Translations under genes and position numbers: made by a program
Shown here: positions 33,851-52,215 of the stretch, piece after piece
Position numbering within the stretch: the first letter of the stretch is position 1
Layout: each line of letters begins with the position of its first letter
The notes under the pieces: model-generated
The model's input: the letters and a program-made list of their open reading frames with translations, nothing else
Told to the model about the DNA's origin: nothing
Database searches by the model: none
Source of the DNA: Candidatus Brocadia pituitae
GTDB taxonomy: Bacteria > Planctomycetota > Brocadiia > Brocadiales > Brocadiaceae
Assembly: GCA_017347445.1 (NCBI GenBank)
Contig: AP021856.1
Location: forward strand, 1,930,613 to 1,994,612
Direction of reading: 5' to 3'
Length of the DNA: 64,000 nt

Positions 33851-34773
33851 TTACGAGAAAGGTGCTGATGATGAACACGCCTTTCACCGCATATGGACAA
33901 ACGATCGATGATGCCTCTGATAATTTTCATCGGGGGCATTATGATGTACCACATCCGCATGGTACTTTGCATCTCGGTACAACGACGTGTGTCATGGGAA
34001 TCCTGAATGTAACTCCGGATTCGTTTTATGATGGTAAACGATATGATACCCGTGAAGAAGCCGTTGAACAGGCGCTCAAGATGGTTAAAGACGGGGCAGC
34101 TATTATTGACGTTGGTGGTGAATCTACGAGACCAGGCGCATTTGCTGTATCGGAAGAAGAAGAAATAAAAAGGGTAATTCCCGTTATCAAACTGTTGTCA
34201 AAACAGATACGGACGCCTATTTCTGTTGATACCTGTAAAGCAAAAGTTGCAGAAAGGGCAATTGATGCCGGGGCATCAATGATCAATGATGTTGGTGGAT
34301 TACAGGCGGATGAAAAGATGGCGCAGGTCGCCGCAGGGTCGCGTGTGCCCGTTATCATTATGCACAAAAAAGGCACCCCGCTGACAATGCAGAAAAATCC
34401 CATCCGAAAAAATGCATGCGTGGAAATTATGGCTTTTTTAAGGAAATCAATTTCCCTTGTGACCGAAGCAGGAATAGAGAAAAACAAAATTATTTTAGAC
34501 CCCGGTATTGGTTTTGGGAAGACCGCGCAACAGAATCTTGAAATTCTGAAAAGGTTAAGAGAGTTTACGTGTTTGGGTTTTCCCTTAATGGTCGGTACCT
34601 CCCGGAAAAAGTTTATCGGCGCCGTATTAGATCTTCCCGTTCAGGAACGTTTGTATGGAACGCTTGCAACCCTTGCCGTTGCAGTTATGAACGGCGCCCA
34701 TATCGTGCGCGTACACGATGTGCGTGAAGCTGTCCAGGTAGTAACTCTGTGTGATGCAATCAGGAACAGTTAA
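33847..34773 (+). CDS. folP: Dihydropteroate synthase
   Basis: A folate-pathway enzyme joining dihydropterin pyrophosphate and p-aminobenzoate. It is 308 residues from GTG 33847, which overlaps lptE by 4 nt as elsewhere in this operon; ATG 33868 is an alternative. The first ~45 residues are an unusual extension. The core has MGILNVTPDSFYDG, IIDVGGESTRPGA, SVDTCKAKVAERAIDAGASMINDVGG, IIMHKKGTP, ILDPGIGFGKT and VGTSRKKFIG. All signature loops are intact. Confidence 0.93.
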   Translation: MITRKVLMMNTPFTAYGQTIDDASDNFHRGHYDVPHPHGTLHLGTTTCVMGILNVTPDSFYDGKRYDTREEAVEQALKMVKDGAAIIDVGGESTRPGAFAVSEEEEIKRVIPVIKLLSKQIRTPISVDTCKAKVAERAIDAGASMINDVGGLQADEKMAQVAAGSRVPVIIMHKKGTPLTMQKNPIRKNACVEIMAFLRKSISLVTEAGIEKNKIILDPGIGFGKTAQQNLEILKRLREFTCLGFPLMVGTSRKKFIGAVLDLPVQERLYGTLATLAVAVMNGAHIVRVHDVREAVQVVTLCDAIRNS

Positions 34774-35597
34774 TGTTTGAGAGCATATTGGGCATATTCG
34801 ATAATATCAACGGCTGGATGGTCGGAAGATCTCTGGGTGAGATCTTTCTTATCTATATGGTGGTGTATGTCGTACTCAGAATCATGCAGGGAACCAGCGG
34901 AACCAGTATTTTACGGGGTTTGGCGTTTATTATTGTCTTGATATCCATTGGCGTACTCTTCTTTGTGCGAAAATTGCAGCTCTTTACCATTGATTGGTTG
35001 ATAACTGAGTTTGTCCCGGTATTTATCATCCCAATTATTATTCTCTTTCAACCGGAATTCAGACGCGCCTTGTTACGGCTTGGACAAAACCCTGTTTTTA
35101 GTATGTTTTTAAAGTCTGAACAGCAGGAAATGACCTACGAAATTATACAGGCAGTTGAGACTTTATCCAAAAGCAAAATTGGTGCTTTAATTGCCATTGA
35201 GCGGGATGTTGGTCTGGGTAATTTTGTGGAAACGGGGACAAAACTCCATGCAGACGTTTCACGCGATTTGCTTACTACCATCTTTTGGCCTGGTTCTCCC
35301 CTGCATGATGGTGCAGTCATAATTCAGGAACAAAAGATAAGCGCCGCCGGTTGTCTGTTTCCGCTTACCGAAAAAACAGAATTATCAAGAAGCCTGGGAA
35401 CCCGTCACAGGGCGGGCATTGGTCTTACCGAGGAAACCGATGCCCTTGTTATTATCGTGTCTGAAGAAACAGGAACGATATCGACCGGCTTTAAAGGGGA
35501 ATTAAAGCAGGGCATTGACGGGAAAGGGTTGAAAAAGATCCTTGATGATCTATCCACCGAAAGATTCAGTGTTGCGAAGAGTATCCGGGGAAGATGA
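34773..35597 (+). CDS. cdaA: Diadenylate cyclase CdaA
   Basis: A membrane-bound enzyme making cyclic di-AMP. It is 274 residues. Three N-terminal membrane spans (IFLIYMVVYVVLRIMQ; LAFIIVLISIGVLFFV; FVPVFIIPIIILFQ) precede the DAC domain with PLHDGAVII (residues ~176-184, DGA motif) and GTRHRAGIGLTEETDALVIIVSEETG (RHR motif). It overlaps folP by one base and is coupled to the CdaR-like gene that follows by a 4-nt overlap, the usual cdaA-cdaR order. Confidence 0.95.
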   Translation: MFESILGIFDNINGWMVGRSLGEIFLIYMVVYVVLRIMQGTSGTSILRGLAFIIVLISIGVLFFVRKLQLFTIDWLITEFVPVFIIPIIILFQPEFRRALLRLGQNPVFSMFLKSEQQEMTYEIIQAVETLSKSKIGALIAIERDVGLGNFVETGTKLHADVSRDLLTTIFWPGSPLHDGAVIIQEQKISAAGCLFPLTEKTELSRSLGTRHRAGIGLTEETDALVIIVSEETGTISTGFKGELKQGIDGKGLKKILDDLSTERFSVAKSIRGR

Positions 35598-36595
35598 AGA
35601 AACTATTTACTGGAAATATTCCGACAAAACTTATGGCACTGGTCATGGCAGTTGCCCTTTGGTTCTATGCTATTAATCGCCATACAGGAGATTTAACCGC
35701 AACCGTGAGCTTGACGGTTACCGTGCCTGAAGGCATTACCATAGTCGAACAGAGTACGGGGGAGATTACCATCCATTTACAAGGCCCGCAGAACGTGATT
35801 GACACGATTGACGGCATGATAAAAGATCGTAAAATATCGGCAAGGTACGCTCTGAAGGAATCTCCCGATGTAATCGAAGATCAGTTAAAACAGAGTATTT
35901 TTATTCGGAGAGAACACCTTGATTTGCCACCTTCTGTTAAACTGCTTTCCGTATATCCGGATAAAATCGATGTTGTGCTGGGTAAATTACAAAGGAAAAA
36001 GTTAAAAGTCGTTTTGCAAAAAAAGGGCGAACCTGCGATTGGGTACAGTGTTGCGAATGAATTTATATTTCCGGGTGAAGTGGAGGTTACCGGGCCCCTC
36101 AACGCGTTGAAAGAAGCCTCCTCTATCAATACGGTTCCTATTGATATCGGCGGAATTTCCGGAGAGCAAAACCGTACATTTCCCTGGAGGATCGGAATAG
36201 ACCAGAAGGTGACGGTTAAGCGTGGAGATAAAACCATTTCAGTGCCGGTTGTATGTGATGAGGATGTCCGGATATGGTTACAAATTATGGAGCAACAGGA
36301 TACGCGTGTATTCGGGAAAATAAAGATAAAAATCATAGGCCCTCCTGAGTATCCTTATCTGATTAAACTGCAGGATGAATTTGCTGATGTAAAGGTAAAG
36401 GGACCAAAGCTTTTGCTGGATAAACTGAATGCAGATGATATTATATTATACATCGATGTCACTTCTTTAAAGCCACCAGGGCCATATAAACAACCGGTAA
36501 AAAGTATTTTGCCGAAAAATATCGAACTCATGGATAAACTACCCGAAGTTCACTTAGACATCCGTGAAACCTTGCGTTCTGTGGAGGTACGATGA
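35594..36595 (+). CDS. cdaR: YbbR domain protein CdaR
   Basis: A 333-residue protein with an N-terminal membrane anchor ([20 protein letters not shown]), then three or four YbbR repeats, recognisable as [52 protein letters not shown] and [25 protein letters not shown]. CdaR is the membrane regulator of CdaA. ATGA overlaps at both ends bind it to cdaA and pdxJ. In Bacillus relatives glmM follows; here pdxJ does. Confidence 0.9.
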
Positions 36596-37338
36596 TACAA
36601 TTGGGGGTAAATATTGACCATGTTGCCACAATACGTCAGGCAAGAATGACGTTTGAGCCTGATCCGGTAATAGCTGCGTCCCTTGCGGTTCATGGCGGCG
36701 CTGATATTATTACCGTTCACTTGAGAGAAGACCGAAGACATATACAGGATCGTGATGTGAGATTGTTGCGGGAAACCGTATCTACCAAGCTAAATCTCGA
36801 GATGTCAACAGCGCCGGAGATTATTGACATTGCCTTGAAAACAAGGCCAGAGCAGGTGACCCTGGTGCCGGAAAAACGGTTGGAGATTACGACAGAGGGT
36901 GGTCTGGATGTTGTCTCGCAAACAAAGGCGATTATGGATGCGGTGAAAAGATTTCAAGACGCTGGTATCCTGGTCAGCCTTTTCATCGATGCGGAAAAAG
37001 ATCAGATTGAAGCAGCAAGGGACGTAGGTGCGCAGTACATTGAATTGCATACGGGAAATTATGCAAATGCTGGAGATTTGGCTGGCAGGAATACCATAAT
37101 TGAAAAACTTCAGGAAGGGGTAAAGGTTGCTCAAAAATTGGGATTACGGGTGAATGCAGGACATGGGTTGACGTATCAAAACGTTGGATTGATCGTGGAA
37201 TTCCTCGATATTGAAGAATTGCATATTGGACATAGCATTGTATCACGGTCGGTTTTTACTGGAATCAAAAAGGCCGTTTCAGAGATGAAGGAATTGATCT
37301 TCCGGCATTCTTTACAAAAGGTTTTGGAGAAAGGTTAA
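36592..37338 (+). CDS. pdxJ: Pyridoxine 5'-phosphate synthase
   Basis: The last step of DXP-dependent vitamin B6 synthesis. It is 248 residues. [15 protein letters not shown] at residues 3-17, [36 protein letters not shown](L)[10 protein letters not shown] with catalytic Glu, [20 protein letters not shown] and [16 protein letters not shown] are all standard. It is the final gene of the purA run, overlapping cdaR by 4 nt. No terminator is obvious right after it. Confidence 0.95.
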
Positions 37339-37526
37339 GCAAAGTAAACATCGGCGCCAGGTTTTATTGGTGCAATTTACATGAACGTTTATTATAAAAC
37401 AAAATGGTTTATGAAATAGGACACCACTTTTTTCCAGCAATAAATTATTTTTTTGTTGACAGATTAATTTCAATGTGTTATTTATACTCCAATATCACAT
37501 ATGACAAAATAAAAAACAAATACATT

Positions 37527-37616
37527 ACGATAAAGGTAAACCCTGAGTGATCAGGGGGCGCAAAGGAAAGGGTCTTTAGACTTATAGGGAAGTAGTTTAA
37601 GAGACAGCCTGCTTTA
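37527..37616 (+). ncRNA. Cyclic di-GMP-I (GEMM) riboswitch-like aptamer, orphan
   Basis: The order of conserved pieces fits GEMM: a TAAAG strand at 37531-37535 that can pair with CTTTA at 37612-37616; GGTAAACC; a stem CCTGA/TCAGG closed by a GTGA (GNRA) tetraloop; GGCGCAAAG; GGGTCT; GGGAAG; and a 3' GACAGCCTG like the family's GATAGCCxGG. The P3 arm is short. No coding sequence follows on this strand. A TTGACA at 37456 with a TATACT at 37483 might be a promoter, but the 21-bp spacing is poor. Confidence 0.55.
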
Positions 37617-37623
37617 AAAGACA

Positions 37624-37678
37624 GCCTTACTGCCGAAGATGTTTTTAACAAACATATTTGCAGTAAGGCTTTTTTATT
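37624..37678 (+). terminator. Intrinsic terminator of the orphan riboswitch RNA
   Basis: GCCTTACTGC at 37624-37633 pairs perfectly with GCAGTAAGGC at 37660-37669, and a T-tract (TTTTTT then ATTTTT) follows. The left arm repeats AGACAGCCT, which also ends the aptamer, so the two could compete. The rest of 37680-37808 holds no gene. Confidence 0.85.
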
Positions 37679-37808
37679 TTTAAGACATTTAGAAGTTCAT
37701 GGGTTTGGAATTGGAACGGGCGGCTGACAGTCTGTTTGGGTAGATATTGTGGCACTTTCAGGATCTTTCGTTTCGCCCACGATACTCGGCATAAGGCGGG
37801 CAGATACC

Positions 37809-38288
37809 TCAATGCTCCTTCTTTTCATCTGCGATTTTATTCAATTCGTAAATCAGTGGGATTTCTCCACAGTCAGGGAATTTGTGGCATTTGACGCACT
37901 CTGACCAGATCTTGTGAGGAAGTGATTCCTTCTCTACCTTATGGAATCCGCACTTCTCAAAGAATTCCGGCACATAGGTGAGCACAAACATCTTTGCAAT
38001 TTGAAGTTTCTTTGCCTCCCGTATGCAAGCCATCGCAAGTTTTTTGCCGACACCTTTGCGCTGCTGGGATTCCAGCACAGCAACGGACTTTATCTCCGCA
38101 AGGTCTTTCCAGAAAATATGCAGGGCTGCACAGCCAATCAGATTATCATTTTCTATGAAGACGAAGAAGTCCCGGATATTTTCATAGAGTTCGCTCAACG
38201 AACGAGGCAGCATCACATTTTTTGCTGCAAATTCGTTGATGAGCTTGTAAATCTTTTCTACATCAGCTATCGTTGCTTTTCGTAACAT
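37809..38288 (-). CDS. argA: GNAT N-acetyltransferase, likely short-form N-acetylglutamate synthase
   Basis: A 159-residue protein. The GNAT fold has LRKATIADVEKIYKLINEFA, the acetyl-CoA loop QQRKGVGKKLAMACI, and FVLTYVPEFFEKCGFHKV. The C-terminal block LPHKIWSECVKCHKFPDCGEIPL, with a Cys-x2-Cys-x4-Cys pattern, and the N-terminal MLPRSLSELYENIRDF are typical of single-domain N-acetylglutamate synthases in diverse bacteria (recollection). The first step of arginine synthesis is inferred; no other arg gene is adjacent. It lies 170 bp after the TatD/radical SAM gene. Confidence 0.7.
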   Translation of the reverse strand: MLRKATIADVEKIYKLINEFAAKNVMLPRSLSELYENIRDFFVFIENDNLIGCAALHIFWKDLAEIKSVAVLESQQRKGVGKKLAMACIREAKKLQIAKMFVLTYVPEFFEKCGFHKVEKESLPHKIWSECVKCHKFPDCGEIPLIYELNKIADEKKEH

Positions 38289-49530: not shown

Positions 49531-52215
49531 ATGAATGAACCGAGGAAAAAAAGTGAACATGAGGTTATGCAGCAGACCATCAAGTTTTTTGACAATCTGT
49601 TGCGTGCATCGATCGACGGCATTTTGATCACTGATGCTACCCATCATATCATAGTCGCCAATGAGGCGTTTTGTAATCTTATTGGACAACAGCAGCGCGA
49701 TGTTATAGAAACGAACTTGTTTTGTTGGCTGGAACGACTCGACCCTCACGGAATAAGCCGGTGGACTGAACTGGTAAATGAAATTCATCTCAAGGGATCC
49801 TGTCGTAATGTTGAGTTTGTAACGAAGCCAGACTCCCGAACCCTGAAGTATCTCAGTGTTAATGCATCACTTCTGGAGAAAGTTGCAACGGAAGAAACCG
49901 GCGTTATCATGAGCATTTGGCGGGACATTACCGAACAAAAGCAGGCAATGCTTCTGGCGGATCAGATGCGCATCACTACCTTTCTCAAAGACGTTGGTAT
50001 TGCCCTTACCCGGGGGAACACCCTGCAGGAAATTTTACGTCATTGCGCAGACGCGGTAGTAAGCAATCTTGATGCCGCATTTGCCCGCATTTGGACCCTC
50101 AATAAAGAAAAAGACGTACTTGAATTGCGAGCAAGCGCCGGAACGTATACGCATATAGATGGCTCGCATAGCCAAATACCGGTTGGAAAATTCAAGATCG
50201 GCCTTATCGCCAGGGAGCAAAAGCCCATTTTGACCAATTCTGTTACTGATGACGTGAACATCAGTAATAAAGAGTGGGCAAGGCAGGAAGGCATGGTTGC
50301 CTTTGCCGGGTATCCCCTTATTGTAGAAGGGCGTCTGGTAGGAGTTATCGCGATGTTTGCCCGCAAAATACTTTCCGAATTTACCATCAGGGCACTGGCA
50401 GCCGTAGCTGATGTAATTGCCCTCGGTATCGTTCATAAACAAGACGAGGAAGAGTTAAGGAAGTCCGAGAAAAGATTCCGGACGATCTTTGAGAATGCAA
50501 ACGATGGGATACTCATGGTAGATATTGAAACCAAAAAATTCCATACGGGCAACAAAAGAATATGTCAAATGCTTGGTTATACGCCGGAGGAGATTAAGAA
50601 TTTGTCTGTTATGGATATCCATTCCAAGGGAGATTTACCTTATATACTGGAGCAATTCGAGAAGTATGTGAAGCGGGAAGTTGTCCAGGCTGAAGATATG
50701 CCACTGAAAAGAAAGGATGGCAGTGTTTTTTACGCAGATATAAACACCTCTCTTATTGCCTTTGCCGGAAAGACCTATCTTATGGGTATTATGAGAGACG
50801 TTACTGAGCGGCGGCAAACAGAAGAAAAAATAAGACATTTGGCGTTTCACGACGCACTTACCAACCTGCCGAACCGGATATTATTCACTGATCGTCTCAA
50901 TCTGGCTTTAGCGCATGCCCACCGGACACAAGAGATGCTTGCCGTACTGTTCATGGATTTGGACAGATTCAAGATTATTAACGATACGCTGGGGCATACC
51001 GTGGGCGATCAGTTGCTCCGTGGTGTTGCTGACAGACTAAAAAACTGCGTGCGTGAAGATGATACAATTGCGCGTCTTGGGGGTGATGAATTCTCCTTGT
51101 TGCTGCCGGGAATTACCCGCGAGGAAGACGTAAACACCATTGCCGATAAGCTCATTGAAATCCTCAAAAAGCCGTGGACAATCAATGGGCATGAACTCTA
51201 TGTCACTGCCAGTCTTGGCATAGTCCTCTATCCCAATGATGGTAAAGATGCAGAAACATTGTTGAAAAATGCTGATGCTGCCATGTATCATGCCAAAGAA
51301 CAGGGAAAAAACAACTATCAGTTTTATACCTCTACCATGCATGCTGAATCTCTAAGAAAGATGATCATGGAAAGGGATATTCGCCGCGCCCTTAACCGTA
51401 ATGAATTTGTCGTTCATTACCAACCCTTTATGAATATCACCACTGGCCAGATTACCGGTATGGAGGCGTTAGTACGCTGGCAGCACCCTCAGCGCGGATT
51501 AATTTTACCCGAAGAATTTCTTCCCCTTGCAGAAGACATCAGGCTGATTGTCTCTATAGATGAATGGGTACTGCGAACGGTATGCACACAGAACAAGACC
51601 TGGCGGGATGCCAGATTTCAGCCTGGCTGTATCGCAGTCAATCTTTCCGCGCACACATTTCAACAACGGAACATTACGAATATTATTACTACCATATTAA
51701 AGGAAATCAGGCTGGAACCCCAGTATTTAGGGCTGGAAATCACGGAAGGTATTGCTATGCAAGATATAGAAACTACCATTCATAAGTTAAAGGAAATGAG
51801 CGATTTGAACATTCAAATTGCTATCGATGATTTCGGCACCGGTTTTTCCTCATTAAGTTATCTCAAAAAGTTTCCTGTGAACAAACTCAAAGTCAGTCCA
51901 CACTTTGTTAGTGGGATTGTAGACAATCAAAAAGATAAAGTTATTGTATCTTCAATAGTTGCTCTGGCACAAGGCCTGCATTTCAGGGTTATTGCGGAAG
52001 GGGTAGAAACTAAGGAGCAACTTGCACTATTGAAACAACTTGAATGCGATGAACTTCAGGGGAATTTGTTTTGTCAACCTTTACCAGCTGAAGTGATTGA
52101 GAAGATGCTGTGGTATGATAAGATATGCGTCGATAGCTGGCATAGAAAGTTGTCCATGTTATTTTCCGGGAAAAAGTCAGAATGGAACCGGCGGGTTTCT
52201 GTAAGCAGAGAGTGA
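49531..52215 (+). CDS. PAS-GAF-PAS-GGDEF-EAL cyclic di-GMP signalling protein
   Basis: A 894-residue cytoplasmic sensor. PAS (residues ~10-120), GAF (~150-300, MRITTFLKDVGIALTRGNTL), PAS (~310-430, KRFRTIFENANDGILMVDIE), GGDEF (ARLGGDEFSLLLPG, residues 517-521, intact) with an I-site RxxD at ~508-511, and EAL (GMEALVRWQHP, residues 645-647; DDFGTGFSSLSYLKKF; IAEGVETKEQL). In the motif normally KxD-x-SFV the sequence is KVSPHFV: Lys787 is kept but the next metal-binding Asp is Ser789. Diguanylate cyclase activity is likely; phosphodiesterase activity may be impaired. Confidence 0.9.
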   Translation: MNEPRKKSEHEVMQQTIKFFDNLLRASIDGILITDATHHIIVANEAFCNLIGQQQRDVIETNLFCWLERLDPHGISRWTELVNEIHLKGSCRNVEFVTKPDSRTLKYLSVNASLLEKVATEETGVIMSIWRDITEQKQAMLLADQMRITTFLKDVGIALTRGNTLQEILRHCADAVVSNLDAAFARIWTLNKEKDVLELRASAGTYTHIDGSHSQIPVGKFKIGLIAREQKPILTNSVTDDVNISNKEWARQEGMVAFAGYPLIVEGRLVGVIAMFARKILSEFTIRALAAVADVIALGIVHKQDEEELRKSEKRFRTIFENANDGILMVDIETKKFHTGNKRICQMLGYTPEEIKNLSVMDIHSKGDLPYILEQFEKYVKREVVQAEDMPLKRKDGSVFYADINTSLIAFAGKTYLMGIMRDVTERRQTEEKIRHLAFHDALTNLPNRILFTDRLNLALAHAHRTQEMLAVLFMDLDRFKIINDTLGHTVGDQLLRGVADRLKNCVREDDTIARLGGDEFSLLLPGITREEDVNTIADKLIEILKKPWTINGHELYVTASLGIVLYPNDGKDAETLLKNADAAMYHAKEQGKNNYQFYTSTMHAESLRKMIMERDIRRALNRNEFVVHYQPFMNITTGQITGMEALVRWQHPQRGLILPEEFLPLAEDIRLIVSIDEWVLRTVCTQNKTWRDARFQPGCIAVNLSAHTFQQRNITNIITTILKEIRLEPQYLGLEITEGIAMQDIETTIHKLKEMSDLNIQIAIDDFGTGFSSLSYLKKFPVNKLKVSPHFVSGIVDNQKDKVIVSSIVALAQGLHFRVIAEGVETKEQLALLKQLECDELQGNLFCQPLPAEVIEKMLWYDKICVDSWHRKLSMLFSGKKSEWNRRVSVSRE

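Follow-up and report, generated by a model that had tools for sequence, protein, structure and literature searches.

In Geobacter metallireducens, the pilM riboswitch works as an ON switch whose aptamer and terminator cannot coexist: bound ligand retains a shared strand in the aptamer, whereas the terminator sequesters the C that pairs with the ligand (PMC9262584). The arrangement reported here resembles it. Among riboswitches, it is those for c-di-GMP whose reported bias towards antisense positions relative to genes is strongest (152 of 2706; PMC9943018). The locus studied here lies in a 64,000-nt stretch of the Candidatus Brocadia pituitae genome, called the window below. The genome is a single contig of 4.08 Mb, and because it carries hydrazine synthase genes, its host can be placed among the anammox planctomycetes. 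Taken by itself, the window element is an ordinary riboswitch without a gene; as argued below, it is probably an intact ON-type c-di-GMP-I leader that has been stranded without its target.

An Rfam scan of the whole window returned a single match above cut-off, to the c-di-GMP-I model RF01051 at 37525-37637 of the plus strand (53.4 bits, with 35 as cut-off; E 1.3e-7 over the window), which bears out the GEMM-I class named in a preliminary description of this locus. The conserved blocks listed there are also present and in order: GGTAAACC (37535-37542), a GNRA-capped stem, which is the GUGA-capped P2 at 37541-37556 with its tetraloop at 37547-37550, then GCGCAAAG (37558-37565), GGGTCT (37570-37575) and GACAGCC. 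The last of these is the second copy of that motif (37620-37626), which the covariance model alignment places in the 3’ part of the aptamer, ending it at the second GACAGCCUUACUGCCGAA and running to GCCGAA. This end falls within the 5’ arm of the terminator. The proposed closure by TAAAG/CTTTA at the first GACAGCC, with a separate terminator ~8 nt further on, is thereby corrected. The first copy (37603-37609) is a spare one, located within a P3-loop insert that, by alignment and fold, forms a hairpin-bearing P3 extension at 37579-37619, and it is able to pair with GGGTC. Judged as a decoy that would break the switch, it puts the window copy at the 30th percentile of our fold measure, and the copy of the sister species G002 is similar. 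In many other copies (e.g. L033, L036, L038 and L043), the P3 loop contains inserts built from GTTTAAAC-type or CGCAAAGACGCTAAG repeats, which can span several hundred bases.

P2 and the ligand pocket together occupy 37535-37565. By Vc2 numbering, G20 would correspond to ~37535, A47 to ~37562 and C92 to the CC at 37633-37634, and because all three are present in the window copy, c-di-GMP is the predicted ligand. The model of the c-di-GMP-I-GGC variant, RF03167, gives 56.4 bits over the same span, below its cut-off of 59, and the copy carries an A at position 47, where we take a G to be the mark of that variant. Furthermore, the folded riboswitch stretch has a stability 4 standard deviations above that of shuffled sequences, and the aptamer shows no obvious decay. 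Judged by its sequence, then, 37525-37637 is a genuine and intact c-di-GMP-I riboswitch aptamer.

So how would this element switch? The strand AGCCTTACTGC (37623-37633) is both the 3’ half of aptamer P3 and the 5’ arm of a terminator, whose 3’ arm GCAGTAAGGCT and T-run, assigned from fold and alignment, lie at 37660-37675 (arm 37660-37670, T-run 37670-37675). A single strand common to aptamer and terminator, as in the pilM-type platform, is thus found at 37623-37633, and because it serves both, the two structures are mutually exclusive. The terminator hairpin has a predicted energy of -22.5 kcal/mol when folded alone, and folding of the whole transcript gives it a probability of 1.0. The terminator described earlier is thus present and strong, but it is not separate from the aptamer; likewise, a switching pair had been read from the repeated sequence, and GACAGCC would take part in switching, only it is the second copy that would compete, with the terminator 3’ arm, and not the first. 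Lower P3 and the shared strand covary weakly, since the latter hardly varies and the 5’ strand accepts mismatches.

A promoter is located at 37456-37484, with TTGACA (37456-37461), a 17-nt spacer ending in TGT, and TATTTA (37479-37484) as part of an extended -10; due to the poor -10 box, a plain promoter scan misses it. Transcription by RNA polymerase from this promoter is predicted to start at ~37491. With c-di-GMP bound, 37620-37637 would stay in the aptamer and the terminator could not form, whereas without ligand this strand would pair with 37660-37670 and transcription would stop near 37676, with an expected unliganded product of ~185 nt. By analogy with pilM, we infer that the window element is of the ON type.

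The element was first described as an orphan. It has indeed no downstream gene, but it is not a lone element, since the window genome holds 45 c-di-GMP-I matches (RF01051), compared to none in 14 control genomes. All 11 genomes of the genus that were examined carry between 20 and 56 each. Riboswitch copies were read piece by piece, using a home-made gene caller that miscalled some starts. The integrated platform with its shared strand is found in 40 of the 45 genome copies, and a terminator in 40 of the 41 that were read with the shared strand. According to this gene caller, 33 of 41 integrated copies are followed within 600 nt by a gene on the same strand, while in seven, the window copy included, the next gene lies on the opposite strand; at least one of these (the L031 copy) is a gene-caller artefact. 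Most of the 40 copies with the shared strand stand before secreted, surface, polysaccharide or sigma-54-regulator genes, among them those for autotransporter, Ig-like, caspase-PEGA and Kelch proteins, an amidase, polysaccharide and glycosyl-transfer enzymes, and sigma-54 activators. Strong TTGACA sigma-70 promoters are a general trait of the family, preceding 62 of 121 copies (5.45 expected).

Several further features of these copies deserve mention. Sigma-54-like -24/-12 elements were found upstream of 14 of the 121 copies, with 0.56 expected (e.g. L020 at 5041, L039 at 5053 and L043 at 5093). The shared terminator is absent in four genome copies, including those at 2195100-2195293, 1639347 and 2295159, and two terminator-less copies stand in tandem, ~30 nt apart, these being the best-scoring matches of the genome.

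Upstream of the window copy and on the same strand lies pdxJ (36592-37338), the last of a cdaA-ybbR-pdxJ run. With its cdaA-type diadenylate cyclase and the ybbR behind it (34773-35597), this run places c-di-AMP synthesis close to a c-di-GMP switch. Downstream of the terminator, the plus strand has no gene up to the rpmE/prfA region, in agreement with the earlier description, and the genes that come next all lie on the minus strand; control in cis of a gene behind the switch, which is typical of this aptamer class and optional for it, is not seen in the window copy. The GGDEF-EAL protein previously placed in the region is encoded by an ORF at 49531-52215. Between the terminator and the convergent GNAT acetyltransferase gene (37809-38288, minus strand), to which read-through from the switch would be antisense, there is a gap of 131 nt (37678-37808) without a match elsewhere in the genus. 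Its sole ORF has 14 codons (37699-37743), and no remnant of an extracellular contractile injection system (eCIS), a phage-tail-like machine, was found in it. A hidden gene or repeat was rejected, as the sequence of the gap occurs in this genome only, and a phage or plasmid origin of the window copy was rejected for want of a match.

The closest relative of the window copy is a copy in the sister species G002, with 76% identity over 294 nt. Of 122 copies compared, the one in G002 has the most similar upstream sequence (3.5 standard deviations above the mean) and the second most similar P3 insert; identity between the two upstream sequences is only ~60%, and two further copies are almost as similar. 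A degenerate ybbR fragment is located just upstream of the G002 copy, where the window counterpart has ybbR-pdxJ. Given the sequence ranks and this fragment, which matches the ybbR-pdxJ context, the two copies are probably orthologs. An inversion of the GNAT-side riboswitch of relatives was also considered as the origin of the window copy, and rejected because its upstream sequence is not especially similar.

The G002 leader stands directly upstream of an eCIS operon with genes for Pvc16, tail sheath, tubes, hub, baseplate, PAAR and gp25. In the window genome, protein and profile searches found neither Pvc16 nor a sheath gene. None of the ten other genus genomes has a riboswitch immediately after an intact pdxJ, and the gene-less arrangement at this locus is absent from all ten as well. 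The eCIS cassette of G002 recurs in G006 behind a different riboswitch, with 87-90% DNA identity over long blocks and a similarity that begins 13 nt before the first gene, and because of these features the cassette is probably mobile. Moreover, pdxJ differs far more between G002 and G006 than the eCIS genes do, which suggests a recent transfer of the cassette (L227, L209).

An eCIS is present in exactly five genomes of the genus, one in each, and all five operons, with Pfam support, have a c-di-GMP-I riboswitch directly before them (L209 at 9799, L227 at 9833, L228 at 5804, L229 at 4184 and L230 at 4977). Scanning found no riboswitch before two eCIS-like loci of other genera (L232, L235). In G003, G006 and G008, a second riboswitch lies upstream of a nearby response-regulator gene, whose product is classed as a sigma-54 activator, on Pfam evidence in G003 and from sequence similarity in G006 and G008. 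A small DUF3467-type gene was seen between the sigma-54 activator-type gene and the eCIS leader (L227 12169-13921, L228 3296-5000, L230 2553-4217). We found no paper linking eCIS with c-di-GMP riboswitches in a literature search that was incomplete. The association is a result worth following, as the presence of a riboswitch before all five operons points to c-di-GMP as a candidate trigger of eCIS production in anammox bacteria that can be put to the test.

What would have left the window leader without a gene? Computed family membership, the overlap of aptamer and terminator, the promoter, the lack of a plus-strand gene and of an eCIS in the genome, and likely orthology with the G002 copy are the observations at hand. 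In relatives, such leaders would govern secreted, surface and injection-system operons; the cargo would be missing here either because the window leader lost an eCIS, or other cargo, that once stood behind it, or because the G002 ortholog captured one later. Against stranding by loss, the eCIS cassette may have been inserted in G002, a possibility raised by its 87-90% identity with the copy behind a different riboswitch in G006, and the 131-nt gap is free of any eCIS remnant. The direction could be either, loss in the window genome or gain in G002, and a leader without cargo would result in both cases. The lack of decay in the aptamer could also mean that the window copy still has a use.

The GNAT locus gives some idea of how such leaders may persist. 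Six relatives have a riboswitch behind GNAT, on its own strand, and the sister species G002 has none there. In two of the six species a subtilisin-like protease, identified from its sequence, follows the riboswitch; another two have different proteins in its place, and for the last two no gene was called there (L170-L175). This pattern supports, but does not prove, that leaders persist while their cargo changes. A more tentative extension, which we regard as possible though doubtful, is that riboswitch leaders in this genus are lasting docking sites, where the cassette of promoter, aptamer and terminator stays and the operon, up to a whole eCIS, is swapped or lost, with the window copy being an empty site.

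Several other roles for the window copy were weighed against that of a stranded leader. The one that survives best, albeit as an unlikely one, is antisense action, in which c-di-GMP would cause read-through past 37676 and the resulting RNA would lower expression of GNAT (37809-38288). The 131 nt that separate the terminator from the end of GNAT, on the opposite strand, lie within the 500 nt allowed for antisense-acting riboswitches, a scan found no plus-strand terminator-like site from the switch terminator to 39979, and c-di-GMP riboswitches are reported to be enriched in such positions (PMC9943018). However, among the ten genus relatives the arrangement is kept in none, which makes an evolved antisense function unlikely and gives no sign of upkeep by selection; where relatives do have a riboswitch at GNAT it faces the same way as the gene, and c-di-GMP has no evident metabolic connection to this GNAT.

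A free-standing c-di-GMP-binding small RNA, acting as sponge or sensor, was suggested at the outset and appears less probable again. Such an RNA, of ~185 nt, would have its own promoter, aptamer and strong terminator in the absence of a gene, and the seven of 41 integrated copies that face an opposite-strand gene (with at least the one artefact) would fit it. The platform, though, is identical in copies that do have genes: it is a standard ON-switch leader in 40 copies, mostly before genes, and its likely G002 ortholog leads an eCIS operon. Nor is the locus conserved in relatives, the gene-less arrangement occurring in no other genome of the genus. Furthermore, the terminated RNA would hold the 3’ strand of the aptamer in the terminator and so be locked in a ligand-free form, which makes a sponge unlikely. 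Least probable is a ligand-gated terminator for the pdxJ operon that shields the convergent GNAT operon from read-through: 187 nt separate the element from the end of pdxJ, which lies on the same strand, and a scan found no other plus-strand terminator in between, but a promoter stands directly upstream of the aptamer, and pdxJ of relatives lacks such an element.

A stranded leader thus remains our preferred reading of the window copy, and stranding through operon turnover may offer a simple alternative to antisense action for some wrong-facing c-di-GMP riboswitches. The window copy is like the antisense-acting riboswitches described before in having a gene on the opposite strand within 500 nt, and differs in being neither conserved in relatives nor functionally linked to that gene (PMC9943018). 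The c-di-GMP-I-GGC model, RF03167, is the best-scoring one for this platform, and many sister copies exceed its cut-off, whereas the window copy does not (56.4 versus 59) and has A rather than G at the position that we take to mark the variant. With the RF01051 class it shares the aptamer, the conserved pocket nucleotides, the GNRA-capped P2 and a score above cut-off, and it departs from that class in the absent downstream gene and in the ~40-nt P3-loop insert with its spare GACAGCC. While the pilM riboswitch senses cGAMP and controls a pilus operon, and the window copy, with c-di-GMP predicted from sequence, has no operon, both have a strand shared by aptamer and terminator and mutually exclusive folds, with the ON logic of the window copy being drawn by analogy (PMC9262584).
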